DNA of 64,000 nucleotides, taken from assembly GCF_900109705.1 (NCBI RefSeq), contig NZ_FOAI01000008.1, forward strand, positions 124,001-188,000, given 5' to 3'. This DNA is from Roseivivax marinus (GTDB lineage: Bacteria > Pseudomonadota > Alphaproteobacteria > Rhodobacterales > Rhodobacteraceae). Under the pieces are notes generated by a model, which was not told where the DNA came from, made no database searches, and was given only the letters and a program-made list of their open reading frames with translations. Positions 12,742 through 35,108 of the stretch are shown here, in pieces (the stretch's first letter is position 1; each line of letters starts with the position of its first letter). The position numbers and the translations under genes were made by a program.

Positions 12742-12786
12742 TGTATCCATCTGTAGCAAGGGACTGACCTGATACAAACGGCTACA
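12742..12786. promoter_or_regulatory. Divergent pair of GNTACA-N4-GNTACA tandem sites
   Basis: Plus strand: GATACA (12771-12776), 4 nt, GCTACA (12781-12786). Minus strand: GCTACA (12757-12752), 4 nt, GATACA (12747-12742). Each pair has the 10-bp period expected for an OmpR-family dimer, and each points to one of the divergent genes (response regulator, rhodanese). The same element recurs at 22326 and 35093. Confidence 0.6.
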
Positions 12787-12832
12787 ATTCTGCCCATGAA
12801 ACAGAATGCAACGATGATCTAGGAAGGACGCC

Positions 12833-13555
12833 ATGGGACCGCCACCTCATATCCTTATCGTGGACGACCACGCTCAGATACGCGAAAGCGTCGCGCGCTT
12901 CCTGGAGAAGAACGGAATGCGCACGACCGTCGCCAGGGATGCCGTGGAGATGGATGCCAAGCTGGCCACCGGTCACTTCGACCTCCTCGTGCTCGATGTC
13001 ATGATGCCGGGCGAGGACGGTTTGTCGGTTTGCCGCAGACTTGCGCCAGAGGGTGATCTTCCGATCATCATGCTGACGGCGCTTGGTGAGGAAACGGATC
13101 GGATCGTGGGTCTGGAAATCGGTGCGGACGATTATCTCGCCAAGCCGTTCAATCCACGAGAACTGCTCGCCCGCATCAAGTCGGTTCTTCGGAGAAGCAA
13201 CCGCGACGAACCTGTGGCCGGAAGCCTCGCTGGGAGGAAAGTCTCTTTTGCGCACTGGATACTGGATACCGACCGGCAGGTGCTGATTGACGAGTCCACC
13301 ACCGAGACCCCATTGACGACCTCCGAGTTCAAATTGCTGGCGGTCCTGCTGGAACGCGCGAGGATGGTGCTCAGCCGTGACCAGTTGCTTGACCTGACCG
13401 CTGGGCGGACGGCAGGCCCGATGGATCGAACCATCGACAATCAGATCAGCCGTCTCCGCCGCAAAATCGAGCCGGATGTACTTAGGCCCAGTGTCATCAA
13501 AACGGTGCGGAACGGCGGATACTGTCTGGCTGCCGATGTCGAGGATGCGCCGTGA
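12833..13555 (+). CDS. OmpR-family response regulator
   Basis: 240 residues: receiver domain with acidic pocket Asp11/Asp12, phosphoacceptor Asp55 in LLVLDVMMPGEDG and the Lys of DYLAKPF; then a winged-helix output domain (residues about 135-235) with RTIDNQISRLRRKIE recognition helix. AGGAAGG precedes the ATG. The stop overlaps the start of the partner sensor kinase. OmpR-type regulators bind tandem repeats with about 10-bp spacing, which fits the GNTACA pairs just upstream and elsewhere in the island. The stimulus is unknown; copper or periplasmic redox stress is inferred from the surrounding genes. Confidence 0.93.
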   Translation: MGPPPHILIVDDHAQIRESVARFLEKNGMRTTVARDAVEMDAKLATGHFDLLVLDVMMPGEDGLSVCRRLAPEGDLPIIMLTALGEETDRIVGLEIGADDYLAKPFNPRELLARIKSVLRRSNRDEPVAGSLAGRKVSFAHWILDTDRQVLIDESTTETPLTTSEFKLLAVLLERARMVLSRDQLLDLTAGRTAGPMDRTIDNQISRLRRKIEPDVLRPSVIKTVRNGGYCLAADVEDAP

Positions 13556-15021
13556 TGCGCCGTGCGATGAGGTCTCTGAGCGGCCAGTTGATCCTGCTTG
13601 TGGTCGCGGCACTTGTCGTGGCCCAGGCGATCAGCCTGTTCCTGTTCGCTGACGAGCGCACCCTTGCGATTCGTGCCGCATTGGGGTTCGAGGCCGCCGG
13701 TCGCGCAGCAAATGTCGCGCGGTTGATCGAGGAGGCCCCGCCGAAGTTGCAGGACTCGATCCTCCGCGCGGCGAATTCGCCATTGATCCGGTTTGATCTG
13801 TCGGACGTTCCGAGCGTGGAACACACCGGTCATTCGGATGGCGGCATCGTGGAAGGACGCATACGCGCGCTTCTGGGCGATAGCTACAGCCGGGATATTC
13901 GCGTTGAACTGCACGAGGTCGAGGGCGCGTTGCGGCCCCTTCCCAATCTCTCGGACGAGATGACGGAAATGCATCTCGCGATGATGCGCGGAGAGTTGAC
14001 GGCGGTTGAGATGAACCTGTCGATCGCCATCAAGGGAGCGCGTTGGCTGAATGTCGGAACGCGGTTCGAGCGTCCGCCAATCCAATGGCCTTTCTATTCG
14101 ATGCTGACCTTTGGAATTTCCGCCGGACTGCTTCTGGTGGCGATCTTCTGGTTTGTCATGACGCGCCTGACGCGTCCTTTGCGGCACCTCTCCAAGGCCG
14201 CGGACCATCTTGGCCGGGGCGAGGATGTGGGTGAATTGACCGTCGCGGGGCCGACCGAGGTCAAGGATCTGACCGTCGCCTTCAACCGCATGCAACGACG
14301 GCTGACCCGGTTTGTCAGCGATCGGACACGGATGCTCGCAGCGCTTGGTCACGATTTGCGCTCGCCGTTGACTGCTATGCGTGTCCGCGCGGAGCTGGTT
14401 GACGAAGAAGAGACGCGGGACAGCCTCATCGCATCGGTCGAAGAGATGCAGAGCATGGTCGAAGCGACGCTCACCTTTGCACGGGGCCTTACCGGATCCG
14501 AAGGTGCCGAAGTGGTCGATCTGCGCAATTTTCTGGACAGCTTGTGCAGCGATATGGCGGCACACTGCACCTTTGCCCCGAGTGATGATGTTGCCGTGCG
14601 GCTTCGACCCAACGCGTTCCGAAGGGCGCTGAGGAACCTGCTTGAGAACGCCGTTCGCTACGGTGGTGCCGCAAAAGTCAGCTGGGCGACCCACGGTTCG
14701 AACCTCGTACTCAACATCGATGACAATGGGCCCGGCATTCCCGTCGACCAGTTGGAAAAGGTCTTCGATCCCTTCTATCGCCTCGAGCAATCGAGGTCTC
14801 TGGAAACGGGCGGTTATGGGCTTGGGCTCTCGATCGCGAGGACAATCGTCCAATCCCATGGCGGCGATATCCAGCTGGTCAACCATAACAGCGCGGGTTT
14901 GCGCGCTGTTGTCACCATCCCACTGGATGAAAGCGAACTAATCGAAGGAGAAACAGATGAAACTGAAAACGCTCATTCCAACGTTGCTGGCCAGCTTGCC
15001 CGCCAGCATGGCGCGAGCTGA
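13555..15021 (+). CDS. Sensor histidine kinase partnered with the response regulator
   Basis: 488 residues. N-terminal helix (about 9-29), a periplasmic sensor region of about 140 residues rich in acidic residues and Met/His (EMTEMHLAMMRGE), second helix near 180-203, HAMP, HisKA with phospho-accepting His in LGHDLRSPLTAMR, then the ATPase N-box NLLENAVRYGG and G-box DNGPGIP. The family is EnvZ/RstB-like. GTG 13552 or ATG 13555 starts it, overlapping the regulator stop. The C-terminus overlaps the next gene by 65 nt. The Met/His in the sensor domain would suit Cu(I) or Ag(I) sensing but this is not shown. Confidence 0.92.
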   Translation: MRRAMRSLSGQLILLVVAALVVAQAISLFLFADERTLAIRAALGFEAAGRAANVARLIEEAPPKLQDSILRAANSPLIRFDLSDVPSVEHTGHSDGGIVEGRIRALLGDSYSRDIRVELHEVEGALRPLPNLSDEMTEMHLAMMRGELTAVEMNLSIAIKGARWLNVGTRFERPPIQWPFYSMLTFGISAGLLLVAIFWFVMTRLTRPLRHLSKAADHLGRGEDVGELTVAGPTEVKDLTVAFNRMQRRLTRFVSDRTRMLAALGHDLRSPLTAMRVRAELVDEEETRDSLIASVEEMQSMVEATLTFARGLTGSEGAEVVDLRNFLDSLCSDMAAHCTFAPSDDVAVRLRPNAFRRALRNLLENAVRYGGAAKVSWATHGSNLVLNIDDNGPGIPVDQLEKVFDPFYRLEQSRSLETGGYGLGLSIARTIVQSHGGDIQLVNHNSAGLRAVVTIPLDESELIEGETDETENAHSNVAGQLARQHGAS

Positions 15022-15262
15022 TGGTCCAGGCTCCTGGACAGGTCACATGTGGGGCGGAGGCTATGGCTTTATGGGCGGCTTCATGATGCTCGCCTTCTGG
15101 GGCGCCGTGATCGCATTGATCGTGTTTCTGGTGCTCAGGCTGCGGGACAATGGCACCCGTCCCCCGGACTCGGACGCGCAGGAAGCGCTCCGGCGCCGCT
15201 TTGCGAATGGGGAAATCGACGAAGAAGAGTTCCGTCGCCGCAAAGCAACGCTCGACGAATAG
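14957..15262 (+). CDS. Small membrane protein with SHOCT domain
   Basis: 101 residues: a signal-like N-terminus, a Gly/Met/Trp-rich stretch (GHMWGGGYGFMGGFMM), one transmembrane helix (about 42-62) and a C-terminal SHOCT motif (EALRRRFANGEIDEEEFRRR). SHOCT proteins often sit beside metal-resistance and kinase genes; their role is oligomerisation or unknown. The gene overlaps the 3' end of the kinase gene in another frame, and the GAAGGAG just upstream supports the ATG at 14957. Confidence 0.8.
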   Translation: MKLKTLIPTLLASLPASMARADGPGSWTGHMWGGGYGFMGGFMMLAFWGAVIALIVFLVLRLRDNGTRPPDSDAQEALRRRFANGEIDEEEFRRRKATLDE

Positions 15263-15327
15263 ACCCCGCCGCGGACGCCAAAGCCGTCCGACGCGACGCC
15301 CACCGACACTGGATAGGAAAGAACGCC

Positions 15328-17328
15328 ATGGTCCCGGAAATTGGTCACTTCGCACTGGCCCTCGCGCTTGCGCTTGCGCTTGTTCAAAGCGTTCTGCCGA
15401 TTGCAGGTGCGTCGCGTGGAAACGCCGTCTGGATGAAATCCGCCCAGGCGACGGCAATAGGACAAGTGCTGTTTGTGGCCATAGCCTTCGCAGCGCTGAT
15501 GCAGGCCTTCATCGTCAGCGACTTCACCGTCAGGAACGTCGTCGAGAATTCCCATTCGCTCAAGCCGATGCTCTACAAGGTGGCCGGGACCTGGGGCAGC
15601 CATGAGGGTTCGCTGCTGCTCTGGATTCTGATCCTCGCGGTGTTCGGCGCGGGCGTCGCCTGGTTCGGATCGAACATCCCCGCCGAGACCAAGGCGCGCA
15701 CCTTGTCGGTGCAGGCGTGGATCAGTGTCGGCTTCCTGTCCTTCCTGCTGCTGACGTCGAACCCCTTCGAGCGGGTGTTTCCGCCGCCGCTCGACGGCAA
15801 TGACCTGAACCCGTTGCTTCAGGACATGGGTCTCGCCATGCACCCGCCGCTCTTGTATTTCGGGTATGTCGGCTTCTCCATCGTGTTTTCCTTCGCCGTT
15901 GCGGCTCTTATAGAGGGTCGCGTCGATCCGGCCTGGGCCAGATGGGTCCGGCCATGGACATTGGCCGCCTGGATCAGCCTGACGGCGGGTATCGCCCTCG
16001 GGTCTTGGTGGGCCTATTATGAACTGGGCTGGGGCGGCTGGTGGTTCTGGGATCCGGTCGAGAATGTAAGCTTCATGCCTTGGCTTCTGGGCACAGCGCT
16101 GTTGCATTCGGCCATCGTCACGGAAAAGCGCGATGCGTTCAAAAGCTGGACCATCCTGCTTGCCATCCTGACTTTCTCGCTTTCACTTCTCGGGACGTTC
16201 ATCGTCCGGTCAGGCCTGCTTACATCCGTACACGCGTTCGCCGTCGATCCAGAGCGCGGAGTTTACATTCTGGGTTTACTCGCGGTGTCCATCGGTGGGT
16301 CGCTGGCGCTCTACGCCTGGCGGGCGCCCGAAATGGAGCCGGGTGGTTTGTTTCGCCCGATCAGCCGCGAAGCCGGGCTGCTCGTGAACAACCTCATTCT
16401 GGCCGCCGCTACGGGAACCGTTCTGTTCGGGACGCTTTATCCACTGATCCTGGAGGCTGTCACCGGGGACAAGATCTCGGTCGGTCCACCTTTCTTCAAC
16501 GCGGCCTTCATTCCGATGATGCTGGCACTGGTCGTGTTCATGGGTCTTGGTCCATTCCTGTCGTGGAAGCGGGCTGATATCGCCGGTTTGCTCGATCGCA
16601 TCCAATTCGTGGCCGTGCTGGCGGTCATTGCAGCCTTGGCCGCATGGTATCTTCTGAACGGTGGGCCGATCATGGCCTATCTTGCCATCCTCGGCGCAGC
16701 GTGGCTGCTTTTTGCGACCCTGCGGGAATGGGCGCTACGCATCCGTCTGTTCGAGGTTTCCCTTGCAGAGAGCGCGAGACGCGTGCGCAACCTGCCACGC
16801 GCCTCTCACGGTATGACGCTTGCCCATGCCGGCGTCGCTGTGTTGATGATGGGGATGATCGGCTCGACCGGATGGAAGAGTGAGGAGATCGTCTTTGCCG
16901 CCCCCGGGACCGAAGTCACGATCGCCGGGTTCGACATCACCTTCGAAGGGGCCGCAAAGGTTCAAGGGCCGAACTACATCGCGGATCGCGGCACCCTTGT
17001 GGTGCGTCGGGATGGCGAATTGGTCACGACACTTTTCCCGGAACGGCGGTATTACCCGGTCGCGGAAAGCCAGACGACGGAGTCGGCCATCCGCTCCACA
17101 TTGGCGGGTGATCTCTATACGTCGATTGCAACGCCAGCCTCCGATCAAGTGAACAACGCCGGAGCATGGACCCTTCGGATCCTCTATGAACCGCTCGTCA
17201 ACCTGATCTGGATCGGCTCGATCCTGCTGGTGATCGGTGGCTGTTTGTCCTTGTCGGATCGCCGTTTGAGGGTCGGGGCGCCGCGCCGTGCCAAACAGCC
17301 AGCCACCGATGCCGTTCCTGCCGAGTAG
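15328..17328 (+). CDS. ccmF: Cytochrome c haem lyase subunit CcmF
   Basis: 666-residue polytopic protein of the System I haem ligation complex. The WWD haem-handling motif is visible in ELGWGGWWFWDPVENVSFM and many hydrophobic helices follow. CcmF takes haem from holo-CcmE and attaches it to apocytochrome c with CcmH. The ATG at 15328 (GGAAAG upstream) gives the usual N-terminus. It is followed 8 nt later by ccmG, then ccmH and ccmI, but ccmA-E are not here, so haem would come from the host's own CcmABCDE. It is probably a second copy serving the cytochromes encoded downstream. Confidence 0.95.
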   Translation: MVPEIGHFALALALALALVQSVLPIAGASRGNAVWMKSAQATAIGQVLFVAIAFAALMQAFIVSDFTVRNVVENSHSLKPMLYKVAGTWGSHEGSLLLWILILAVFGAGVAWFGSNIPAETKARTLSVQAWISVGFLSFLLLTSNPFERVFPPPLDGNDLNPLLQDMGLAMHPPLLYFGYVGFSIVFSFAVAALIEGRVDPAWARWVRPWTLAAWISLTAGIALGSWWAYYELGWGGWWFWDPVENVSFMPWLLGTALLHSAIVTEKRDAFKSWTILLAILTFSLSLLGTFIVRSGLLTSVHAFAVDPERGVYILGLLAVSIGGSLALYAWRAPEMEPGGLFRPISREAGLLVNNLILAAATGTVLFGTLYPLILEAVTGDKISVGPPFFNAAFIPMMLALVVFMGLGPFLSWKRADIAGLLDRIQFVAVLAVIAALAAWYLLNGGPIMAYLAILGAAWLLFATLREWALRIRLFEVSLAESARRVRNLPRASHGMTLAHAGVAVLMMGMIGSTGWKSEEIVFAAPGTEVTIAGFDITFEGAAKVQGPNYIADRGTLVVRRDGELVTTLFPERRYYPVAESQTTESAIRSTLAGDLYTSIATPASDQVNNAGAWTLRILYEPLVNLIWIGSILLVIGGCLSLSDRRLRVGAPRRAKQPATDAVPAE

Positions 17329-17336
17329 GAGAGAAG

Positions 17337-19521: not shown

Positions 19522-19524
19522 CTA

Positions 19525-19548: not shown

Positions 19549-19549
19549 G

Positions 19550-22325: not shown

Positions 22326-22341
22326 GATACAAATGGATACA
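22326..22341 (+). promoter_or_regulatory. GATACA-N4-GATACA tandem site upstream of L,D-transpeptidase 1
   Basis: GATACA at 22326-22331 and 22336-22341, 10-bp period, oriented toward the gene at 22421. It matches the tandem sites at 12742-12786 and 35093-35108 and abuts the -35 of the divergent promoter. Confidence 0.55.
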
Positions 22342-22420: not shown

Positions 22421-22981
22421 ATGACGACATCGCGAAACAACAAGATCAATCGACGAAGCCTGTTGGGGTATGCGGCTGTCGCTTTGGTTGCACCAAGCGT
22501 GGTTCGAGCCGAAACCATTCGCCGCAACATTTCTTCTTTCCGAGTTCATGACTGGCAAGACCATTTCGACACGCTCGGCAAAGGGATCATCATCTCAGAC
22601 ACCGTGACGATGGCGCTCCAGCATTGGACATCAGATGGCGAAATGCGGATTTACCCAACGTCCGTTCCGCTGACCGACGAACTCACCAAACGCGGTTACA
22701 CCGAAGTGGTGGAAAAACGCAAAAACCCCAGCTGGGCGCCAACGCCCTCCATGCGGGAACGCAATCCGGAATGGCCGGCTCGTGTCGAGGGGGGTGATCC
22801 GGACAACCCATTGGGTACTCGTGCACTGTACCTGTCGTGGCAGTACTACCGTATTCACGGGACACAGGATACGCGCAAGATCGGCCGCCGGTCGTCAAAC
22901 GGCTGCATCGGCCTGTTCAACGCACAGATCGAGGAAGTCTACGAGCGGGCACCTGTCGGCACTCAAGTCAAACTCATCTGA
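22421..22981 (+). CDS. Exported L,D-transpeptidase family protein (copy 1)
   Basis: 186 residues. Tat-type signal (NRRSLLGYAAVALVAPSVV), then a YkuD-fold catalytic domain with the conserved pair HGT (near residue 145) and SSNGCIGL, whose Cys is the nucleophile. Such enzymes make 3-3 peptidoglycan cross-links or attach lipoproteins to the wall, independent of penicillin-binding proteins. TAGGAG precedes the ATG. It is the most divergent of the four copies in this window. Followed by cytochrome c genes at short spacing, so likely the first gene of a long redox operon. The tandem GATACA site upstream suggests control by the two-component system. Confidence 0.88.
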   Translation: MTTSRNNKINRRSLLGYAAVALVAPSVVRAETIRRNISSFRVHDWQDHFDTLGKGIIISDTVTMALQHWTSDGEMRIYPTSVPLTDELTKRGYTEVVEKRKNPSWAPTPSMRERNPEWPARVEGGDPDNPLGTRALYLSWQYYRIHGTQDTRKIGRRSSNGCIGLFNAQIEEVYERAPVGTQVKLI

Positions 22982-23009: not shown

Positions 23010-23468
23010 ATGGACAAATTGACTGCGCTGATTGGTGCCGTTTTTGTTATCGGCGGGGGTTTTGCCGTTTGGCAGTTCGTTGGAGCGGAAGATACAGCGG
23101 TTGGCCACTCCATGACGCCACCCGACACAAGTGAGATCGCTGAAGGCGGCCCGATCGTTCAGGTCCAGCTGCCTTCCCAACTCTCGCAACAGGCGGCGCT
23201 TGGAAAGAGCATATTCGAGGCAAAGTGTTCTGAGTGTCACGGTGAAAATGCTGCCGGTCAAAACGGTGTTGCGCCGCCTCTCGTGCACAAGATCTACGAA
23301 CCGAGCCACCATTCGGACATGGCTTTTGTTCTGGCAGCTCAAAACGGCGTCCGTGCACATCACTGGAATTTCGGTAATATGCCTAAGATCGAGGGATTGA
23401 CCCAAGGAGACGTCAAGATGGTGGCCGCCTATGTCCGCGAATTGCAGCGGGCCAACGGGATCAACTGA
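23010..23468 (+). CDS. Membrane-anchored monohaem cytochrome c
   Basis: 152 residues. One N-terminal helix (about 4-25) acts as an uncleaved anchor or signal; the haem motif CSECH is at about residues 73-77 and a distal Met is available in GNMPKIEGL. The chain fits class I cytochrome c. It lies 28 nt after the L,D-transpeptidase gene and overlaps the next gene by one base. It probably shuttles electrons between the multicopper oxidase/other cytochromes and the respiratory chain; the partner is not defined. Confidence 0.87.
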   Translation: MDKLTALIGAVFVIGGGFAVWQFVGAEDTAVGHSMTPPDTSEIAEGGPIVQVQLPSQLSQQAALGKSIFEAKCSECHGENAAGQNGVAPPLVHKIYEPSHHSDMAFVLAAQNGVRAHHWNFGNMPKIEGLTQGDVKMVAAYVRELQRANGIN

Positions 23469-23794
23469 TGCGTTGGTCGAAGACGAACCGATGGATTCTG
23501 TCGGTCGTTTTCGGCCTTTTCCTTGTAGTTCTCGGGGTGCCAGAGGCGCCGGTATATCATGGTGAAACGTCGTTGGGGCAGGAATACCATGGTCACGAAG
23601 ACGCAGGGCCATCGACCGAGGCCTCTGGCCACTGCCATCCAGGCCTCGATTGTTCTGTCCCGGCAGCGTTATTGCTTCAGCCGAACATGGCGTACGAGCC
23701 TTCTTTTCTGAAAGCCGTCATGCAAGACGGCGCGATCCAACGAACCGAATTGCGCCCGATCAGCGATCCTCCACCGCCCCGACGGTGGGTCTGA
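23468..23794 (+). CDS. Small exported protein of unknown function
   Basis: 108 residues with an N-terminal hydrophobic signal or anchor (WILSVVFGLFLVVLGV), a His-rich middle (YHGHEDAGP, GHCHPGLDC) and a Pro/Arg tail ending PPPPRRWV. The two Cys and five or so His could bind metal. No family is recognised. Its start overlaps the preceding cytochrome stop (TGATG), so it belongs to the same operon. Confidence 0.6.
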   Translation: MRWSKTNRWILSVVFGLFLVVLGVPEAPVYHGETSLGQEYHGHEDAGPSTEASGHCHPGLDCSVPAALLLQPNMAYEPSFLKAVMQDGAIQRTELRPISDPPPPRRWV

Positions 23795-23837
23795 TTTCAC
23801 ATCGCTCGAAAAGCAGACCCAAAGAAGGATCGAAGAC

Positions 23838-24410
23838 ATGAAAAAGACGACTATCGTAGCGGCAGTGTTGATTGCAGGTACTGCGGTCACGGCATTCGCG
23901 CATAGCGGTGCCACCGGCATCGTGAAAGAGCGCATGGACGCCATGCTTGCAATGGGGAAGGCGGTCAAGACCGTGGCCCCGATGATGAGGGGCGAAACGG
24001 CCTATGACGCAGAAACAGTGCGCGATGCCGCGCGCCTGTTCCAGCAGCACGCCGGTGAGAGCATGACGAACCTGTTCCCTGAGGGCACAGGGGGCATGCC
24101 CTCGGAAGCCAAAGACGAGGTGTGGACCGACTGGGACCGCTTCGCAGCATTGGCGAGTCAGCTGGAAGAATATTCCGAAGGCCTGGAACGCGCAGCCGAC
24201 AATGGATTGGGCGGCATGGGCGGCAATACCTCCATGGGTGGCACCTCGATGATGGGCGGTGGGTCCATGATGGGCGGGAGCACGATGATGGGCGGAGGCG
24301 ACATGATGGATGCGGCCGCCATTGCCGAAATGCCCGCCGACGCAGCATTCGCGATGACGACCCAGGTCTGTTCCGCATGCCATGAACGCTTCCGGGCGGA
24401 AGAAGACTGA
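23838..24410 (+). CDS. Cytochrome c' with a Met/Gly-rich insertion
   Basis: 190 residues. Signal peptide ending TAFAHS, then a four-helix cytochrome c' (class II) fold: the N-terminal helix carries VKERMDAMLAMGKAVK and the haem site CSACH sits at the C-terminus, as in the family. Between helices 3 and 4 is an insertion of roughly 40 residues made of MGG/SMMGG units, absent from ordinary cytochrome c' (about 130 residues mature). Met-rich loops of this kind bind Cu(I)/Ag(I) in CusF/CopK-like and CueO proteins. It sits between a His-rich exported protein and a dihaem cytochrome. A copper-binding or copper-oxidising electron acceptor role is inferred. Confidence 0.85.
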   Translation: MKKTTIVAAVLIAGTAVTAFAHSGATGIVKERMDAMLAMGKAVKTVAPMMRGETAYDAETVRDAARLFQQHAGESMTNLFPEGTGGMPSEAKDEVWTDWDRFAALASQLEEYSEGLERAADNGLGGMGGNTSMGGTSMMGGGSMMGGSTMMGGGDMMDAAAIAEMPADAAFAMTTQVCSACHERFRAEED

Positions 24411-24412
24411 CC

Positions 24413-25330
24413 ATGCGCCGGTTCTTGACACTCGTCAGCGGGGCCGCCGTGCTGGGCGCGGCCAGCCTCGGCGTCGTGATTGCATGGCCTGTCGGCAGTG
24501 CAGTGACTCCGATTGCAATAGAGGGCAATGTCGACCGGGGCGCATATCTGGCGCGCGCCAGTGGGTGCATTGCCTGTCATACCAATTTTGAAGCGGGCGG
24601 CGCACCACTTGCCGGAGGGGCGCCGCTCGAAACCCCGTTCGGAACGTTCTACCCGCCCAACCTGACGACAGACCCGGAACATGGCATGGGCGAATGGACG
24701 GCAGAACAGTTCGCAAAAGCCATGCGGCAAGGCATCGGCCCCGATGGAACGCCGTACTATCCGTCTTTCCCGTACACCTTCTATGCGGATTTTTCTGATC
24801 AGGATATCGCTGACCTCTGGGCGGCGTTTCAAACCGTGCCGCCCGTGGACGAGCCTGCACCAGAAAATGATGTCAGCTTCCCATTCGACCAACGATGGGG
24901 GCTGAAGCTCTGGCGAGCGGCGTTCTTCTACGATCCGGATACCGAACCGATTGAAGGGCGAAGCGACGCATGGAATCGAGGACGGGAATTGGTGCGCGGT
25001 GCGGCACATTGCGGAGCCTGCCATACGCCGCGCAATCTTGCGGGAGGCCGCGATATCGGTGCTTCCTTTGCAGGCAACGCCCAGCTTCCCGGTGGCAGCA
25101 AGGCCCCCGCGATACGGCCAAAAGACCTGGTCAAAAATGACTGGACGGTTTCAAACCTCGCTTATGCGCTCCAGACCGGCATCACCCCTTCGGGCGATGC
25201 TTTCGGCGGCAGCATGGCGGAAGTGGTTCGCGAGGGAACTCGGTTTCTGACACCTGCCGATCGCGAAGCGATGGCGCTTTTCCTGCTGAACAAGGACACG
25301 GTCGAGGCGGAGAACCCCGCGTCGAACTAA
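24413..25330 (+). CDS. Dihaem cytochrome c
   Basis: 305 residues with an N-terminal signal/anchor (about 7-27) and two haem motifs, CIACH near residue 52 and CGACH near residue 202. It is related to the cytochrome subunit of membrane alcohol/aldehyde dehydrogenases, but two domains rather than three and no dehydrogenase gene nearby. Starts 2 nt after the cytochrome c' stop. It is followed by a hairpin at 25337-25357 and the multicopper oxidase, which could pass it electrons. Confidence 0.88.
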   Translation: MRRFLTLVSGAAVLGAASLGVVIAWPVGSAVTPIAIEGNVDRGAYLARASGCIACHTNFEAGGAPLAGGAPLETPFGTFYPPNLTTDPEHGMGEWTAEQFAKAMRQGIGPDGTPYYPSFPYTFYADFSDQDIADLWAAFQTVPPVDEPAPENDVSFPFDQRWGLKLWRAAFFYDPDTEPIEGRSDAWNRGRELVRGAAHCGACHTPRNLAGGRDIGASFAGNAQLPGGSKAPAIRPKDLVKNDWTVSNLAYALQTGITPSGDAFGGSMAEVVREGTRFLTPADREAMALFLLNKDTVEAENPASN

Positions 25331-25336
25331 CACCAC

Positions 25337-25357
25337 GCGGGGGCAACACGCCCCCGC
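25337..25357 (+). terminator. Terminator or attenuator before the multicopper oxidase
   Basis: GCGGGGGC (25337-25344) pairs with GCCCCCGC (25350-25357) over a 5-nt loop, followed by TTTCT. Only 16 nt separate it from the next start codon, so it may reduce rather than end transcription. Confidence 0.65.
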
Positions 25358-25373
25358 TTTCTCGAGGATCGAA

Positions 25374-26768
25374 ATGAGACAAACACGTCGGGATTTCTTG
25401 CGCCATGCAACACTGGCGGCCTGCGCGGCGGCCATCCCGCAGTCGGCTTTTGCCGCGACCCCGTTCGAGGACCTGATTGCCAAGGTTGCACGTCGACAGC
25501 TTCTTCCGGACACCTACCCGGAAACAGAGATCTGGGGCTATGACGGCCTCGTTCCGGCCCCGGAAATCAGGGTCACACAAGGCGATCGGGTGCGTCGCAG
25601 GTTTCGCAACGAGGTACCCGATCCCAGTTCGGTTCACTGGCACGGAATCCGGATCGATAACGCGATGGATGGCGTTTCAGGACTGACCCAGAAAGCCGTG
25701 GCACCAGGTGAAACCTTTGACTACGACTTCGTCGTACCGGACGCGGGCACCTATTGGTATCACGCGCATAATCGCTCATACGAGCAAGTCGCGCGTGGTT
25801 TGCGCGGTGCCTTGATCGTCGAAGAGGTCGATGGACCGGACATAGACCGCGAGGAAGTCATCGTTCTGGAGGACTGGTTGCTCGACCCTGAGAGCGGGCA
25901 GCTGTTCGACAATTTCGAACAGCCTATGATGATGAGCCACGGTGGACGCATCGGCAACTTTATCACGACCAATGGGCGCTATGACCTGACCTTGCCCGCG
26001 AAGCGCAACGAACGCATTCGCTTGCGGATCATCAACGCAGCAAGCGCTCGAATTTTCCCGCTGAGGCTCTCTGGATTCAGTGGCTGGACGGTGGCCGTGG
26101 ATGGAATGCCAACCGGCCAACCCCAGTCGGTTGACGGCGAGTTGATCCTCGGCCCGGCACAGCGCGTCGACTTAATTGTGGATGTGACCGAAGGCGAAGG
26201 CGGCACCGCCCAATTGCTTCGCATCGGCGATGATGATCAACTGACCCCGTTGGTGAGTTTTCTGGTCAACGGCACAGCCAGTTCAGTACCAAGAGGCAAG
26301 CCACTGCCGTTGCCGCCGAACCCCGCGGCACACGCCCCGGACCTTGCCGATGCGCGTGATTTGCAACTGGTCATGTCCGGCGGGGCAATGGGGCGAATGC
26401 AGTCCGCATTGCTTGGCGGGGAACGTCTTGGATTCCGTCAGCTTGCCCAAGCGGGCAAATTCTGGGCCCTGAATGATGTCGCCGAAATGACCTACACGCC
26501 ACTGGCCGATCTATCCCTGAACGAGCCGGTGCGCCTGAAGATCGAGAACCAGACCGTTTTCCCACATGCGATGCACCTGCACGGGATGCATTTCCGCGAG
26601 CTGCGCCCCGACGGCGCGTTCGGGCCGATGCGGGACACGATCCTGTTGGCCGGCAACGAGTCCCGGGAGATCGCCTTTACGGCAGACAATCCCGGCAAGT
26701 GGCTGTTCCATTGCCACATGCTCAGCCACGCCGCATCTGGCATGACAACCTGGATACGGGTCACATGA
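25374..26768 (+). CDS. Tat-exported multicopper oxidase (copy 1)
   Basis: 464 residues. Tat signal (TRRDFLRHATLAACAAA) followed by three cupredoxin domains. All four copper-ligand clusters are visible: HWHG, WYHAH, HAMHLHGMHF and HCHMLSHAASGM. This places it with CopA/CueO-type laccases that oxidise Cu(I) to Cu(II) in the periplasm. No large Met-rich insert is present, unlike CueO. It is embedded among cytochromes c; the ATG of the next cytochrome overlaps its stop. A second oxidase is at 33777. Substrate inferred as Cu(I); phenols cannot be excluded. Confidence 0.92.
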   Translation: MRQTRRDFLRHATLAACAAAIPQSAFAATPFEDLIAKVARRQLLPDTYPETEIWGYDGLVPAPEIRVTQGDRVRRRFRNEVPDPSSVHWHGIRIDNAMDGVSGLTQKAVAPGETFDYDFVVPDAGTYWYHAHNRSYEQVARGLRGALIVEEVDGPDIDREEVIVLEDWLLDPESGQLFDNFEQPMMMSHGGRIGNFITTNGRYDLTLPAKRNERIRLRIINAASARIFPLRLSGFSGWTVAVDGMPTGQPQSVDGELILGPAQRVDLIVDVTEGEGGTAQLLRIGDDDQLTPLVSFLVNGTASSVPRGKPLPLPPNPAAHAPDLADARDLQLVMSGGAMGRMQSALLGGERLGFRQLAQAGKFWALNDVAEMTYTPLADLSLNEPVRLKIENQTVFPHAMHLHGMHFRELRPDGAFGPMRDTILLAGNESREIAFTADNPGKWLFHCHMLSHAASGMTTWIRVT

Positions 26769-27247
26769 GATATCTCGTTTGGTCCCTTCCGATCACTGTC
26801 GCAGCAGCCGCCTTCACGTATTGGCTCTCGACCAGTGCATCCTCGGATGTCGGCAGCGCGTCCAGGGCGGAGAGCTACGACATCGAAGAAGGCGCGTTGC
26901 TTTACGCAGAAAACTGTGCGTCTTGTCATGGCGCGGGTCTGGAAGGCCAGCCGGAATGGCGAACGCCCGGCGCGGATGGGCGCCTGCCAGCACCACCACA
27001 TGATGAGACGGGTCACACCTGGCATCATCCTGACAGCCTGCTCTTCGATTACACAAAACTGGGGGGTGCGGCGCTTCTGGCGCGTCAGGGCGTCGAATTC
27101 GACAGTGGCATGCCCGGTTTCGCAGACGTGCTGACCGACCAGCAAATTCACAACATCCTGGCCTTCATCCGGTCCACCTGGCCAGACCGCATCCGCGAAG
27201 TCCAAGCCGCGCGGACAGAAGCCGACGAACAACGGGGAGAGAACTAA
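26765..27247 (+). CDS. Monohaem cytochrome c, anchored
   Basis: 160 residues with an N-terminal helix (3-22) and one haem motif CASCH near residue 57; candidate distal ligands lie in SGMPGF. The acidic/Arg-rich tail (EVQAARTEADEQRGEN) may be flexible. The start ATG overlaps the multicopper oxidase stop by 4 nt, which suggests the two proteins work together, for example as electron donor/acceptor. The closest family is c-type cytochromes of the class I type. Confidence 0.87.
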   Translation: MRYLVWSLPITVAAAAFTYWLSTSASSDVGSASRAESYDIEEGALLYAENCASCHGAGLEGQPEWRTPGADGRLPAPPHDETGHTWHHPDSLLFDYTKLGGAALLARQGVEFDSGMPGFADVLTDQQIHNILAFIRSTWPDRIREVQAARTEADEQRGEN

Positions 27248-27248
27248 A

Positions 27249-27980
27249 ATGCGTTTCAGACAAGCCTTCACGACGGTCGCGATAGCTGCCTTGCTTCCGA
27301 TACCGGCACTCGCGGACGAACTGTCAGAGTCGCGGGTCAAGGAACTTGTGCTCGAGGCAATCCGCGAGAACCCGGAGATTGTCATGGAGGCCGTCGCCAT
27401 CCTTGAACAAAGGCAGGCGCAAGCGCAGGAGCTCAGTCAGGCCCAAGTTCTGAATGACCAGCGCGATCTGATCGAGAACGATCCGAATGCGCCGGTTCTC
27501 GGCAACCTGGAAGGGGACGTCACTGTTGTGGAATTTTTCGACTACAACTGTCCCTATTGTCGGCGGGTCAAACCCGAGGTGCGGGCTTTGATCGAAGACG
27601 ATCCCAACATTCGCCTCGTCTATCGTGAATGGCCCATTCTCGGAGACGGATCGGTGTTTGCCGCGAAAGCGGCTTTGGCAGCGCGCAAGCAGGACAAATA
27701 CGAAGAGTTTCACTGGGCAATGATGGGGCTGGAAGGCCGCGCGGAAGAGGCCTCCGTGCTGCGCGTGGCCGAGGAGATCGGCCTGGATATCGCGCAGTTG
27801 CGCAAGGACATGGAGGCCCCCGAGGTCGAAGAGCACATTGCGACCTCCATGCAACTGACCCAAGCTCTGGGCTTTAACGGCACGCCGTCTTTCGTGATCG
27901 GGGATGCGCTGGTCCCGGGCTTCGTCGAAAAGGCGCAGCTTGCCGACTTGGTCGAGGAAGCCCGCAAAGTCGAAGACTGA
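27249..27980 (+). CDS. scsC: DsbA-family thioredoxin, ScsC-like
   Basis: 243 residues: signal peptide (cleavage near ALADE), an N-terminal helical, Glu/Gln-rich stalk (residues 25-75) like the trimerisation region of ScsC/Com1-type proteins, then a DsbA thioredoxin fold with active site CPYC in FFDYNCPYCRRV and cis-Pro loop FNGTPSFVIGD. ScsC-type proteins isomerise misfolded disulfides under copper stress and are reduced by ScsB, which is encoded 5.6 kb away on the opposite strand. Last gene of the cytochrome-oxidase operon (1 nt after the previous stop). Confidence 0.85.
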   Translation: MRFRQAFTTVAIAALLPIPALADELSESRVKELVLEAIRENPEIVMEAVAILEQRQAQAQELSQAQVLNDQRDLIENDPNAPVLGNLEGDVTVVEFFDYNCPYCRRVKPEVRALIEDDPNIRLVYREWPILGDGSVFAAKAALAARKQDKYEEFHWAMMGLEGRAEEASVLRVAEEIGLDIAQLRKDMEAPEVEEHIATSMQLTQALGFNGTPSFVIGDALVPGFVEKAQLADLVEEARKVED

Positions 27981-28286: not shown

Positions 28287-28314
28287 GTGAAGAAATTTAT
28301 TTGGCGCCCTCCCA

Positions 28315-28345
28315 TTGACCCTCCAGTAACTGGAAGCCTCATATT
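28315..28345 (+). promoter_or_regulatory. CueR-type promoter of copA
   Basis: -35 TTGACC (28315-28320), 19-nt spacer with the dyad CTCCAGTAACTGGAAG, -10 CATATT (28340-28345). It is back to back with the copZ promoter, 28 nt apart. Confidence 0.85.
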
Positions 28346-28375
28346 CCACTTCGAATGGAAAAACAGGTGACACAT

Positions 28376-30886
28376 ATGCCCGAACCCAAACAGATCAGCC
28401 TGCCGATCGAAGGCATGTCATGCGCGTCCTGCGTTGGCAGGGTCGATCGCGCATTGAATGCAATCGACGGCGTAGAGGATGTGTCGGTGAACCTTGCCTC
28501 GGAAACTGCTCGCATGAGCGTGGACGCGCTCAAGCGCATTCCCGACATCATCGAATCCCTTCGCGAGCTGGGCTACCCCGCGCGGAAGGCCAGGGCTGAA
28601 CTCACGATTGCAGCGATGTCCTGTGCCTCTTGCGTCGGGCGGGTCGATAAGGCGCTTGCCGCGGTGCCCGGGGTGGTCGAGGTGAACGTCAACCTCGCCT
28701 CAGAGACGGCGACGGTCGTTTACGTCGAAGGTCTTGTCACGACATCCGATCTGATCGAATCAAGCGGCGCGGCAGGGTATCCAGCAACCGTGGCAACGGC
28801 CCAGGCCGGTGACGACAGAGTTGCGCGCAAGGAGGAAGAGGCTCAGGCGCTTGCCAAACGGGTCACCTTTGCGGCCATCCTCGCCTTGCCGGTCTTCCTG
28901 ATCGAAATGGGTGGCCACGTCATTCCGGCCGTTCATATGCTGATCGAGACCACGATTGGCCAGCAGACGAGTTGGCTTCTTCAGTTCGTGCTGACGACAA
29001 TCGTTCTCTTCGGCCCGGGCCGGACGTTTTACACCAAGGGTTTCCCGGCCTTGTTCCGGGGTGCCCCCGATATGAACAGCCTCGTCGCGGTCGGCACCGG
29101 GGCGGCTTACCTTTATTCCGTGGTTGCGACATTCGTACCGTCGGTCCTGCCTGACACGCTGCGCACCGTCTATTTCGAGGCGGCAGCGGTCATCGTCGTT
29201 CTGATCCTTCTGGGGCGGTTTCTTGAAGCGCGCGCCAAGGGGAGAACGGGCGCGGCCATCCAGAAGCTATTAGGGCTTCAGGCGCGGACTGCACGCGTGA
29301 TGCGGGACGGAGAAAGCGTCGAGATCGAGATCGATGCGCTGGTTCAGGGTGACATCGTCATCGTGCGCCCTGGTGAACGCATCGCGGTCGATGGCGAGGT
29401 CATCGAGGGGACCAGCCGCGTCGACGAAAGCATGCTGACAGGCGAGCCGATCCCCGCTGAAAAAGGTGCCGGAGATACGGTGACCGGCGGGACGGTCAAC
29501 GGCGCCGGAAGCCTGCAGTTCCTCGCCACGCGGGTCGGCGCCGACACGACCCTGGCGCAGATTATTCGCATGGTCGAAGAGGCCCAGGGCGCCAAACTGC
29601 CGATCCAGGGATTGGTCGACCGGATCACCTTGTGGTTCGTGCCTACCGTGATGGCGATCGCGGCGGCGACCGTGCTGGTCTGGCTGTTTTTCGGGCCTGA
29701 TCCGGCCCTGACGATGGCGCTGGTCGCCGGTGTGTCGGTGCTCATCATCGCGTGCCCCTGCGCGATGGGGCTTGCGACGCCGACCTCGATCATGGTCGGG
29801 ACGGGACGTGCTGCGGAAATGGGTGTCCTGTTCCGTAAAGGTGACGCCTTGCAGCAACTTGATTCCGTTGATGTGGTCGCCCTCGACAAAACAGGCACGG
29901 TGACCGAGGGGCGACCCGCACTGACTGACCTTGTGCTGGCGGAAGGGTTCGATCGCCCAACAACGCTCTCGAAGATCGCTGCCGTGGAGTCGCTCTCCGA
30001 GCATCCTGTCGCGGACGCCATCGTGCGGGCCGCGCGGGCCGAGGGCGCACCTCTTGTGGCGGCCGAAGGCTTTCAATCGGTCACAGGTTACGGCGTGCGC
30101 GCCGTGGTCGAAGACGTGGAGGTGTTGGTTGGGGCCGACCGCTACATGGCGCGCGAAGGCATTGACGTCTCGGCATTGGCTCCAGAGGAAACGAAGATCG
30201 CAAGCAAGGGTCGCACGGCGCTTTACGCTGCCATAGATGGGCGTGTCGCCGCCGTGATCGGCGTGGCCGATCCGGTCAAACCGGCAAGCCGCGCAGCCAT
30301 CGCAGCGCTGCACGAAAAGGGTCTTGCGGTTGCGATGATCACCGGCGACAAACGCGAAACCGCCGAAGCCATCGCCCGCGAAACCGGTATCGACCACGTC
30401 ATCGCCGGCGTCCTGCCGGACGGCAAGGTTGCGGCGCTCGACAGTTTGCGCCAAGGGAACAAGCGCATCGCCTTTGTCGGCGACGGGATCAACGACGCCC
30501 CGGCGCTGGCGCATGCCGATGTGGGCATCGCCATTGGAACCGGCACCGATGTGGCCATCGAATCTGCGGATGTCGTCCTGATGTCGGGCGATTTGCGCGG
30601 CGTGGTGAACGCCTTCGAAGTATCGCGGCGGACCATGCGCAACATCCGGCAGAACCTGTTCTGGGCCTTTGCCTACAACGTGGCACTTATTCCGGTCGCT
30701 GCCGGGGTGCTTTATCCCGCCTTTGGGTTGCTCCTGTCACCAATCCTTGCGGCGGGTGCGATGGCGTTGTCCTCGGTGTTTGTCCTGACCAATGCCCTGC
30801 GGCTGCGGCGCATCGCGCCTGCGATGGACGAGCAGCGCGCAATCCCGGCAGAGCTGGCAGCCGCCACTCCTGCTCCAGCAGAATAA
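28376..30886 (+). CDS. copA: Cu(I)-exporting P1B-1 ATPase CopA (first copy)
   Basis: 836 residues. Two N-terminal HMA domains with MSCASC at residues 14-19 and 81-86, then the P1B core: transmembrane metal site CPC at 460-462, phosphorylation loop DKTGT starting Asp504, the HP motif in SEHPVADAI, the GDGIND hinge, and YN plus MxxSS in the last helices (ALSSVFV). It pumps Cu(I) from cytoplasm to periplasm. The start at 28376 is preferred to 28355 because the promoter -10 is only 10 nt from the latter and AGGTGA precedes the former. Followed 12 nt later by cueR. Confidence 0.96.
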
Positions 30887-30898
30887 CGGAGGTCCGAC

Positions 30899-31297
30899 AT
30901 GAACATCGGAGACGTTGCCCGACAATCGGGTGTGCCCCCAAAAACAATCCGCTACTACGAGGACATCGGGCTGATCCGCCCGAACCGTAGCGAGAACGGC
31001 TACCGCGCGTTCACCGAGAGCCACATTCACAAGCTGGCGTTTCTGGGTCGCGCACGGGCCTTGGGGTTCACCATCGAAGATTGCAGGACGCTCCTGTCGC
31101 TCTACGAGGATGAAAACCGCGAAAGCATGCAAGTGAAGGCGGTTGCGGAAGACCATCTGCGCCAGATCGAGGAAAAGATCGCGAAACTGCAATCCATGCG
31201 CGCGACGCTCGCCGAACTGGTGGAAAAATGTGCCGGGGATCACCGGCCCGACTGCCCCATCATCGAGGATCTGTCGCCGGAGCGGTTGGCCAAGTGA
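30899..31297 (+). CDS. cueR: MerR-family Cu(I)-responsive regulator CueR
   Basis: 132 residues. Winged-helix DNA-binding N-terminus (MNIGDVARQSGVPPKTIRYY), coiled-coil dimerisation helix, and the metal loop with Cys111 and Cys119 (CAGDHRPDC). Ser76 occupies the position where divalent-metal sensors have Cys, which marks a monovalent (Cu/Ag) sensor. It is co-transcribed with copA and is the expected activator of the TTGACC-type promoters at 6744, 11491, 22294, 28256, 28315 and 39623. Confidence 0.94.
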   Translation: MNIGDVARQSGVPPKTIRYYEDIGLIRPNRSENGYRAFTESHIHKLAFLGRARALGFTIEDCRTLLSLYEDENRESMQVKAVAEDHLRQIEEKIAKLQSMRATLAELVEKCAGDHRPDCPIIEDLSPERLAK

Positions 31298-31318
31298 CAG
31301 GCAAGAAGGGGCTGTACC

Positions 31319-32083
31319 TCAGAACCAGATCGCGCGGACCGGCATCCAGATACCCATGAAGATCATCATCAGGTTTTCCGTCAGCGAAATGAACCCCAGC
31401 GGGACGGAACTGTCACCGCCGACGCAGGCGCATTTCAGCTCTCTCTTGTCGATATAAACAGCCTTGAACACGCTGACAGCGCCGACCGTGCCGATAAACA
31501 GGGCGACAGGCGCCGAGAGCCACAGCAGCGCGCCGGCAGTCATCAGGACACCTGCCAACGCTTCGCCGAACGGGTAGACCTTGCCGTATCGCACCCATTT
31601 GCGCGCCAGCAGATCGTAGTTGAGGAACATCGTCGAAAACCCTTCGACATCCTGCAATTTCTGGATCGCGAGAATGGTCATGGACAGCGAAATGAACCAT
31701 TCGAACCCCCGCAAGGTAAGGACCGACCCGTACTGGTGCCAAGACAGGCCCAATGCCAACAGCGCGGCAACGGAAAAGATCGCGATGACCGGCTGGTAGG
31801 TCGTGTCGCTTTGCTCTTCCTCGGGTGGGTCAATGTCGAAAAACACCCTGAGATCATCGTAACCGCCGATCCGTTCGTCCCCGATGAAAGTCTGCGGCGT
31901 CGTCTCGACCCCGTGCTTCTCCATGAAAGCATCGGTGTCTTCACGGGTGTCAAGCGGATGGTCTTCCACCTCGAAGCCTTGCCGCTCCAGCAGGTCTTTC
32001 GATTTCAGACCGTAGGGGCAGACATGGCCCGGCATGACCATGCGATAAAGCTGCGCGGATTTACTGTCTGTGTCGCGGGGCAT
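31319..32083 (-). CDS. Glutaredoxin-MauE fusion membrane protein
   Basis: 254 residues. Residues 1-85 form a glutaredoxin-like domain with the one-Cys active site CPYG (Cys22) and the conserved TTPQTFIGDERIGGYDDL. Residues 95-254 are four or so helices of the MauE/DoxX type with CACVGGDSSVPLGFISLTEN near the end. MauE-like domains partner DsbD-type or thioredoxin domains in periplasmic thiol redox. The usual second active-site Cys is replaced by Gly. It lies 12 nt downstream of the DUF305 gene and is convergent with cueR. Role inferred as thiol or metal transfer at the membrane. Confidence 0.82.
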   Translation of the reverse strand: MPRDTDSKSAQLYRMVMPGHVCPYGLKSKDLLERQGFEVEDHPLDTREDTDAFMEKHGVETTPQTFIGDERIGGYDDLRVFFDIDPPEEEQSDTTYQPVIAIFSVAALLALGLSWHQYGSVLTLRGFEWFISLSMTILAIQKLQDVEGFSTMFLNYDLLARKWVRYGKVYPFGEALAGVLMTAGALLWLSAPVALFIGTVGAVSVFKAVYIDKRELKCACVGGDSSVPLGFISLTENLMMIFMGIWMPVRAIWF

Positions 32084-33693: not shown

Positions 33694-33776
33694 GGAGTGT
33701 TCTGTCGCCTTGAAGTTCCTCTTCCGGAAATGGCACAAGTGCGGCAGTTGGCGAAAGCCAGTCTATCATTCATGAG

Positions 33777-35081
33777 GTGACGGAATCGTCTTTGAGCCGG
33801 AGGTCTTTCCTTGGCGGGATGACCGTTGCGCTGGCTGGTACCCGCTTGCCAGCAGCGACACACGAGTTGATCCTCGCGCCCCAATCGATCAAGGCGCACC
33901 TTGCTGGGTACGACGTGTCGATGTTGGGCTTCAACGGTGGTCTGCCGGGCCCAGAAGTCAGAATGCGACAAGGACAAACCGCCCGCATTACCCTCGATAA
34001 CCGATTGGAGGAGGGCGCTCTCGTTCACTGGCATGGGTTGCGGGTTCCAAATCGGATGGATGGTGTCAACGTCCTCACTCAGGATGTGGTCATTCCGGGC
34101 GACTCGTATCGTTATCAATTCGGCGTCCCGGATGCCGGCACGTATTGGTATCACTCGCATTACCTGTCTTACGATCAGGTCAGCCGCGGTCTTTTCGGCG
34201 CCTTCATCGTCGAGGAGCAAAATGCGCCGGCTGTCGACCATGACATCGTTGTTCAGTTCTTCGATGTCTTGCTGGATCAGTCCGGGCAGTACGACGAAGC
34301 GTTCAACCCGGCCCACTTCGCAACCGAGGGCCGTATCGGCAATACGGTCACGGCACTTGTTTTCAATGGAACCGGCAAGACTGTGAAACGAGGCGACCGT
34401 CTGCGACTGCGTCTCATAAATCCCTCTATCGACAGGGTGTACCGTGTCGGCCTGGATGGTTTGATAGGCAAGATCGTTGCACTGGATGGCATGCCTCTGG
34501 CGCATCCTCGGACGCTCGAACCGATCCTTCTCGCTCCGGGGCAAAGATGCGATGTGATTGGTGATGCGACCGGGCCTATTAGATTCGACGACAGCTTTGG
34601 AGAACAGACGTTGAGCCTTGGCGAAATCGCTGTTTCCGGTTCCCGTGAGCCCGCGAAAGCGCCCATCACCGCATTGCCCGCCAACCGAATGCCCGCCCCG
34701 AAAGACCCCGGCCAAACCGCGGAGCTGGTGCTCCAGGGAGGTGCGGGAAGCGCGTCCCACAACGGCACAGGGACATGGGCGCTCAATGACGTATCCGGCC
34801 TGCCTCGAAGGCCTTTCCTATCCGCCGCGCAGGGGACGACCGCGCGCATTTCGATCCGCAACGAAACCGGCTTCCCACACGTCATGCATCTGCATGGCCA
34901 CCATTTCTGGGAACTCGATGCGGCGGGTGAAGCCGGTCCATACCGGGACTCGACCTATCTGGATACCGGCGAGACGCGGGATATTCTCGTCGTCCTGGAC
35001 AATCCGGGATCGTGGATGCTGCATTGCCACATGTTGAGCCACCAAGCCGACGGTATGGCAACGTGGATCAGAGTCGGCTGA
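33777..35081 (+). CDS. Tat-exported multicopper oxidase (copy 2)
   Basis: 434 residues starting at GTG 33777. Tat signal (SRRSFLGGMTVALAG), cupredoxin domains with HWHG, WYHSH, HVMHLHGHHF and HCHMLSHQADGM as copper ligands. It resembles copy 1 at 25374 throughout but is clearly diverged. No Met-rich region. It probably oxidises Cu(I) in the periplasm. It is preceded by an L,D-transpeptidase and followed by dsbB, a gene order partly repeating the 22-27 kb region. Confidence 0.9.
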   Translation: MTESSLSRRSFLGGMTVALAGTRLPAATHELILAPQSIKAHLAGYDVSMLGFNGGLPGPEVRMRQGQTARITLDNRLEEGALVHWHGLRVPNRMDGVNVLTQDVVIPGDSYRYQFGVPDAGTYWYHSHYLSYDQVSRGLFGAFIVEEQNAPAVDHDIVVQFFDVLLDQSGQYDEAFNPAHFATEGRIGNTVTALVFNGTGKTVKRGDRLRLRLINPSIDRVYRVGLDGLIGKIVALDGMPLAHPRTLEPILLAPGQRCDVIGDATGPIRFDDSFGEQTLSLGEIAVSGSREPAKAPITALPANRMPAPKDPGQTAELVLQGGAGSASHNGTGTWALNDVSGLPRRPFLSAAQGTTARISIRNETGFPHVMHLHGHHFWELDAAGEAGPYRDSTYLDTGETRDILVVLDNPGSWMLHCHMLSHQADGMATWIRVG

Positions 35082-35092
35082 GGGTCGAGACG

Positions 35093-35108
35093 GATACATA
35101 CCGTTACA
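35093..35108 (+). promoter_or_regulatory. GATACA-N4-GTTACA tandem site upstream of dsbB
   Basis: GATACA (35093-35098), 4 nt, GTTACA (35103-35108), oriented toward dsbB and the L,D-transpeptidase gene at 35746. Same 10-bp tandem layout as at 12742-12786 and 22326-22341. Confidence 0.5.

Follow-up and report, generated by a model that had tools for sequence, protein, structure and literature searches.

A conserved GNTACA tandem and its mirror-image operator as candidate control sites of a putative periplasmic copper regulon in Roseivivax marinus

The DNA analysed here (the window) is a 64,000-nucleotide stretch of contig NZ_FOAI01000008.1 of Roseivivax marinus, and the element in question is a tandem of two hexamers, GNTACA-N4-GNTACA, that recurs in it beside the genes of an OmpR-family two-component system and before envelope genes of the same island. 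By comparison of related loci, the tandem is a conserved regulatory element with a preferred period of 10 bp, and its conserved targets are the regulator operon, an EF-hand gene that in most cases diverges from that of the regulator, and the unit headed by the first L,D-transpeptidase gene. It is very probable that the tandems are operators of the island's own regulator, which would bind them, and a periplasmic copper response is the reading that suits the regulon best. The sites and the two signaling genes are listed below; related loci and genomes are referred to by our own L and G numbers.

12742..12757, minus strand: tandem site GCTACA-GATG-GATACA, which points at the rhodanese gene and forms the left half of the 45-bp operator (pattern scan, alignment)
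12771..12786, plus strand: tandem site GATACA-AACG-GCTACA, which stands 62 bp ahead of the regulator start codon and forms the right half of the 45-bp operator (pattern scan, alignment)
12742..12786, no strand: mirror operator, exact (pattern scan)
12833..13555, plus strand: OmpR-family response regulator with recognition helix DRTIDNQISRLRR (Pfam Response_reg and Trans_reg_C)
13552..15021, plus strand: sensor histidine kinase (HAMP, HisKA, HATPase), the presumed periplasmic part of which has conserved H91, H94, H121, M137, M140, H141, M144, M145 and M154 (domain search, alignment)
22326..22341, plus strand: tandem site GATACA-AATG-GATACA, 95 bp before the first L,D-transpeptidase gene (pattern scan)
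35093..35108, plus strand: tandem site GATACA-TACC-GTTACA, 102 bp before the TTG start of dsbB (pattern scan, alignment)
37316..37360, no strand: second mirror operator, one mismatch, before the EF-hand gene (pattern scan)

The four exact tandems of the window (12742-12757 on the minus strand; 12771-12786, 22326-22341 and 35093-35108 on the plus strand) were found precisely where an earlier note on this DNA had placed them, and each of the four points to its downstream gene, as that note had said. The note had also raised the possibility that the motif is equally frequent in shuffled or coding sequence; dinucleotide shuffles of the window gave a mean of 0.01 exact matches, and none of 100 shuffles reached four. 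When one mismatch was allowed, the single further match in the window was 37316-37331 on the minus strand, which the note had called a weaker version of the site. The position was right, but this is not a lone weak site: it matches the wider hexamer GNKACA (K being G or T) exactly and has a plus-strand partner at 37345-37360, offset by 29 bp and with one mismatch to GNKACA, a geometry identical to that of 12742 and 12771. The whole genome (4,013,190 bases) contained five exact GNTACA tandems, four of them within the island, and one match to the reversed pattern. With GNKACA, 13 matches were obtained, 5 in the island and 8 elsewhere, and the reversed control gave 7; the tandems outside the island were therefore at about the level of the control. 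The hexamers were also constant among close copies of the island. Across 15 aligned copies representing four haplotypes, the hexamer columns of 12742-12786 were invariant, and in near-identical copies of three sites the variable columns numbered 0/24, 0/12 and 0/12 in the hexamers versus 13/146, 29/339 and 15/209 in the flanks, which are small numbers but agree with each other.

Conservation was examined in two sets of loci, neither of which was selected by the motif: 78 loci collected by regulator homology (set 1) and 46 loci of the same bacterial family collected by kinase homology (set 2). The near-identical island copies L006 and L007 were left out of the set 1 counts of period, offset and helix; L155, which repeats L011, was left out of the set 2 counts of period, logo and targets but kept in the helix count; and L162 to L165, picked for the motif, were left out of the enrichment counts. 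The loci are not all independent, since 50 of them form 43 groups at >90% regulator identity. In set 1, 20 GNTACA pairs had a period of 10, and all other periods had at most 2 except period 18, with 11. This second peak was considered as another spacing and rejected, as it comes from one conserved coding stretch of Pseudomonas-type loci. In set 2 (45 loci), GNKACA pairs numbered 82 at period 10 versus 1 to 13 at 19 other periods, and the reversed pattern numbered 8 at period 10; the 10-bp tandem layout that had been described for the window is thus the preferred one. A logo of 97 exact sites showed G instead of T in about a third of the hexamers and, at positions that the pattern does not fix, T before the first hexamer (69%), A after the second (83%), and then A or T (60% and 32%). 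Among other genomes of the genus, 13 exact tandems were found, 10 of which lie in island copies or before a regulator of the same helix type (six in G004, two in G006, and two in G007), although the four island matches in G004 were judged by sequence and spacing alone. GATACA tandems were also seen in the Rhizobium loci L024, L027, L028, L034 and L047, near 8550-8730, at 1.3 to 1.5 kb upstream of the regulator and near other genes; some of them have weak partners at offset 29.

The two tandems at the regulator promoter stand back to back, so that four hexamers make up the mirror operator TGTMNC-N4-TGTMNC-N13-GNKACA-N4-GNKACA. This arrangement was fixed across loci. In the 78-locus set together with the window, 18 of the 60 opposite-strand tandem pairs (at most 3 mismatches together, within 80 bp) had an offset of 29, some of these overlapping within one Rhizobium locus, and the next most frequent offset had 3. 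Among the kinase-selected loci, 20 opposite-strand pairs of exact sites lay within 150 bp of each other, 16 at offset 29 and 4 at offset 30. A scan of 295 genomes of the family for the operator with at most one mismatch found 61 places in 42 genomes and none for the reversed pattern. For at least 42 of the 61 operators, a kinase homologue (34 to 100% identity) is found no more than 1.2 kb downstream. Twelve of the remaining 19 are identical or nearly identical in sequence to the window's EF-hand operator, the downstream gene having been inspected for the window's own only. A further five are found beside an EF-hand gene (L196), between EF-hand and copper-ATPase homologues (L152), next to an EF-hand match close to a contig end (L197), or beside a regulator and an EF-hand match (L200 and L201). 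In a class-wide scan, the exact operator was present in 3 of 385 genomes: that of the window, one in which it lies between a 57%-identical regulator gene and an EF-hand gene, and one in which no island gene accompanies it.

The element was next related to the regulator that would read it. The protein has the features of the OmpR/PhoB family, with a receiver and a winged-helix Trans_reg_C domain, and the half-sites are direct repeats near target promoters, their 10-bp period falling within the 10 to 11 bp of that family. We classified the regulators by their recognition helix (78 in set 1, one of them unclassified; 46 in the family set, two of them unclassified). In set 1, an exact site was present in 9 of 13 promoters of regulators with an I/V/L-D-N helix versus 3 of 64 with other helices (Fisher test, 8e-7), and a site with at most one mismatch in 12/13 versus 17/64 (1e-5); both tests overstate independence, the "IDN" members being related by descent. 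Among the 44 promoters of "IDN" regulators in the family set, 36 had an exact site. The reversed pattern occurred exactly in 1 of 124 promoters (0/13, 0/64, 0/44, and 1/3 unclassified). Eight OmpR-type regulators were found in the genome, and only that of the window has an I/V/L-D-N helix. In two other species of the genus, overlapping tandems found by the motif alone lie upstream of regulators that are 42-43% identical to that of the window and have the same D-N-Q helix. The earlier note's proposal that the island's own regulator reads the sites therefore has strong comparative support, from the sites before divergent orthologues and from a matching helix that is unique among the eight. Before those D-N-Q regulators, three GNTACA hexamers stand in a row with a 10-bp period (L162, ~9705-9730; L164, ~9875-9900). 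Regulators with a DRSIDVRVTRLR helix (L044, L046 and L052) have an upstream variant, GAAACA/GATACA-N4-GTTACA, perhaps a related class of box with a different first half.

Targets were counted in coding-strand upstream regions of 50 loci, each gene being assigned once, to its best query; homologues were taken when the match started in their first 60 residues and at least 150 bases lay upstream, with gene starts estimated from the alignment. An exact site preceded the regulator gene in 33 of 47 cases (38 with at most one mismatch), mostly near -60, and the EF-hand gene in 7 of 12 (all 12 with at most one mismatch), mostly at -88 to -92. For the first L,D-transpeptidase gene the count was 8 of 18 (16 with at most one mismatch), mostly at -94 to -115, and for the second it was 1 of 3. 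By comparison, 23 other island genes had none in 267 upstream regions (5 with one mismatch), and the reversed pattern had 1 in 347. The scan of related islands that the earlier note had suggested thus gave enrichment before the regulator, EF-hand and L,D-transpeptidase genes. Because of these counts, the regulator operon and the unit of L,D-transpeptidase, cytochrome, oxidase and ScsC genes are regarded as conserved targets. The dsbB site was present in 12 of 12 copies of the window's island type, including the window's own and a probable Dinoroseobacter shibae duplicate. No exact or one-mismatch site was found directly before 12 DsbD and 11 DsbE homologues.

The gene content and the sensor suggest the signal. 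The genes that would be controlled, and those for copper, are as follows.

12171..12644, minus strand: rhodanese-domain protein, start taken from the D. shibae annotation; the mechanical open reading frame extends to 12797 (domain search)
22421..22981, plus strand: first L,D-transpeptidase (YkuD), head of a same-strand gene run to ~27980 (domain search)
23010..27980, plus strand: presumed rest of the first L,D-transpeptidase unit, with cytochromes c, cytochrome c', a multicopper oxidase and an ScsC-like DsbA protein (operon predicted from strand and spacing only)
28318..28336, plus strand: CueR-type palindrome ACCCTCCAGTAACTGGAAG before the copper ATPase (palindrome scan)
30899..31297, plus strand: MerR-family regulator; its D. 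shibae counterpart is annotated as CueR (domain search, annotation)
35195..35707, plus strand: DsbB (domain search)
35680..36411, plus strand: third L,D-transpeptidase, after dsbB (domain search)
37443..38051, plus strand: EF-hand protein, its start codon set by the length of the D. shibae gene and by the sequence (domain search)

The nine His and Met positions of the sensor were conserved in 36 to 48 of 50 kinase homologues (72-96%), and no conserved Cys was found. Together with the gene content, this His/Met cluster suggests copper or silver as the signal, and copper is the likely one. The 295 family genomes yielded at least some 60 kinase matches with an identity of 42% or higher, a number that includes copies of one island. 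No tandem site with at most 2 mismatches was found within 200 bp of the copper ATPase gene. This gene has the palindrome at 28318-28336, which we take to be CueR-type by the CueR consensus, and is followed by a CueR homologue; cytosolic and periplasmic copper therefore look separately wired. In L008 and L012, the first L,D-transpeptidase gene is separated from the tandem site by a CueR-type palindrome. Since these two loci carry both boxes, two copper regulators may share one promoter there.

These results can be put together in the following scheme. The partner kinase would sense excess periplasmic copper (or silver) through its His/Met cluster and would phosphorylate the regulator. One head-to-tail regulator dimer would occupy each 16-bp tandem, one hexamer per DNA-binding domain. 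At the regulator promoter, two dimers facing away from each other would sit on the 45-bp operator, from which the phosphorylated regulator would drive its own operon and the divergent gene; we assume activation, not repression. Single tandems would place under the same control the unit of the first L,D-transpeptidase, cytochrome c, multicopper oxidase and ScsC genes on the one hand, and dsbB with the third L,D-transpeptidase gene on the other, and the second 45-bp operator would control the EF-hand gene. The output would be a periplasmic repair kit of wall cross-linking, disulfide handling, copper oxidation and electron carriers, and cytosolic copper would be handled separately by CueR and a P-type ATPase.

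Other explanations of the same data were weighed. Some other protein, either a chromosomal OmpR-type or a global envelope regulator, could be the one that uses the tandems as operators, and the island regulator would then be just one of its targets. The boxes of RstA and UzcR have TACA or TTAC half-sites with a 10-bp period, according to the accessible parts of the sources, and the sequence alone does not name the regulator. However, the operator accompanies this regulator-kinase pair on plasmids and across many genera, the helix is absent from the other seven OmpR-type regulators that were found in the genome, and in two other species of the genus the motif led to the 42-43% identical D-N-Q-helix regulators, so we consider this explanation unlikely. 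A signal other than copper (envelope or disulfide stress, another metal, or redox), which shares with the best explanation the link between sites and regulator, is a possibility to be taken seriously, if a doubtful one. The kinase core is closest to EnvZ, then to CpxA and RstB, cell-wall enzymes are among the targets, and the copper ATPase has a CueR-type box of its own; yet the conserved sensor residues are His and Met and include no conserved Cys, and multicopper oxidases and an ScsC-like protein belong to the same units. Finally, the repeats might be due to chance or ancestry, as an inherited stretch without function. The closest plasmid copies are 95-97% identical (30 records) and so are not independent, but the element is kept where the kinase has diverged to 34-60% identity, the hexamer columns are invariant while the flanks vary, and other spacings and the reversed pattern were tested and not enriched. 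This explanation is hardly credible. A chance or coding-sequence origin of the tandems was likewise ruled out by the shuffles, the spacing counts and the reversed controls.

Several observations, besides the shared ancestry that inflates the Fisher tests, weigh against a copper regulon under the island's own regulator. The kinases of L010 and L013 are without the M-MH-MM cluster although their regulator promoters keep the operator offset. An AlphaFold2 model of the sensor domain, built from a 12-row alignment, had a mean predicted local distance difference test score (pLDDT) of 74.7, and Foldseek gave no match for it at E <= 0.001; we conclude nothing from this model. Five of the 44 "IDN" family regulators had no site with at most one mismatch in 260 bp, three of these five having an exact site ~1.4 kb upstream of the regulator. 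The 17 of 64 regulators with other helices that do have such a site indicate that the helix is not exclusive. Some sites also occurred without an island gene nearby: the fifth exact tandem of the genome itself (L005), 3 of the 13 exact tandems in other genomes of the genus (one in G001 and two in G008), and 2 of the 61 operators (L198, at a contig end, and L199). One of two operators outside the family (L230, G633), exact over 45 bp, had no recognisable island gene within ~1.5 kb. No conserved -10 box was found downstream of the 97 aligned sites, and a sigma-70 scan of 12000-31500 gave 4 promoter-like sites versus 5.4 in shuffles, with no conserved -10/-35; a terminator scan gave 22 versus 17.9 in shuffles. 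As for the targets, dsbB genes elsewhere had an exact site in 0 of 11 cases and a one-mismatch site in 1 of 11, and rhodanese homologues in other loci had a site in 0 of 14. Thus, dsbB and the rhodanese gene are not conserved targets, and their sites were observed in this island type only. The regulon that the earlier note had drawn, comprising wall cross-linking, disulfide formation and sulfur transfer, kept its first L,D-transpeptidase and lost dsbB and the rhodanese gene as general members; as a theme, a periplasmic copper response fits better.

Around the regulator-kinase pair, the island encodes CcmF, DsbE, CcmH, CcmI, DsbD, three L,D-transpeptidases, cytochromes c, two multicopper oxidases, an ScsC-like DsbA protein, two copper-type P-type ATPases, DsbB, the EF-hand protein, Lgt and a MerR regulator. 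An EF-hand homologue is divergent from the regulator gene in many loci of the family, and the protein has a weak similarity, below cut-off, to the lanmodulin and XopAW models. The block 12171-18373 is 97% identical on plasmids of D. shibae and on those of Salipiger, Phaeobacter and Sagittula, and some plasmids bearing the closest copies were typed as conjugative. It is found on pDSHI01, where the regulator is DSHI_RS19040 and the kinase DSHI_RS19045, on pDSHI03, and on a plasmid of Actibacterium EMB200-NS6 taken to be pNS6001. In the window, 46356-63252 encodes a third P-type ATPase, an apolipoprotein N-acyltransferase, an M23 peptidase, a thioredoxin/DsbA protein and the conjugation protein TrbI. 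This continuation of the island into conjugation genes makes it probable that the contig is a plasmid, or else an integrated one.

The analysis provides an operator and a target list for a two-component family that is common in this bacterial family, and it would tie copper sensing to L,D-transpeptidase expression. Copper reportedly inhibits L,D-transpeptidases, a result said to be that of Peters et al. in 2018, and inducing these enzymes would therefore make sense. Since plasmids, some of which were typed as conjugative, take the sensor, the operator and the targets along together, the regulon may carry its own wiring into new hosts. In its fullest form, the proposal is that an undescribed class of OmpR-type regulators with an I/V-D-N-Q helix reads the four hexamers of a mirror-symmetric operator, fixed at 45 to 46 bp, as a two-way self-activating switch on conjugative plasmids, with a copper-triggered envelope regulon of its own that induces L,D-transpeptidases directly; we give this combination an even chance.

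Among known systems, RstA/RstB of Escherichia coli and Klebsiella (box TACATNTNGTTACA; PMC4117788, PMC8562477) is likewise an OmpR-family system with a tandem TACA, a 10-bp period and a head-to-tail dimer, as far as the accessible text of these sources goes. In the kpRstA-DNA structure described there, two DNA-binding domains lie head to tail on the tandem TACA, and the recognition helix contacts the bases through four residues, two Arg, one Ser and one Val (PMC4117788). TACA-N6-TACA is contained in all four strict sites of the window. The window's regulator is 35% identical to E. coli RstA and keeps both DNA-contact arginines of the helix, but it has Asn in place of the Val and Thr in place of the Ser. 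Compared with the RstA box, the element has an extra G that opens each hexamer, has G for T in about a third of hexamers, and occurs as two tandems back to back. The NCBIfam cut-offs for RstA and RstB were not reached (155.7 of 330 and 141.8 of 478 bits), nor were those for OmpR and EnvZ, although these were the best-scoring models (254.7 of 331 and 192.7 of 415 bits). CopRS, CusRS and CzcRS are likewise metal-linked OmpR-family pairs beside multicopper oxidases and copper ATPases, and here too the regulator and kinase did not reach the cut-offs of TIGR01387 and TIGR01386 (128.8 of 279.2 and 122.4 of 292.55). Because all these scores are below cut-off, the pair is described as an OmpR-family system with an RstA-box-like operator and with no named equivalog family.

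Two further systems were likened by description only, from the accessible parts of their sources. UzcRS of Caulobacter (CATTAC-N6-TTAA; PMC8963506) is likewise an alphaproteobacterial, metal-responsive two-component system that acts on envelope genes through a 10-bp repeat, but it has other half-sites and a genome-wide Caulobacter regulon, and no back-to-back operator is described in that part of the source. DsbRS of Pseudomonas aeruginosa, which senses copper and induces disulfide-bond genes, has the closest known logic, and the accessible descriptions of it give no binding motif (PMC10141476, PMC11195947). The RepABC plasmids pDSHI01, pDSHI03 and, probably, pNS6001 of roseobacters carry the same block, with no regulatory element described in the part of the report available (PMC5513947). 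In the literature searched, which covered few subscription journals, no description of the element, the mirror layout or the regulon was found. The kind of system is known, and its DNA element, its mirror-image layout and its gene set appear to be new.

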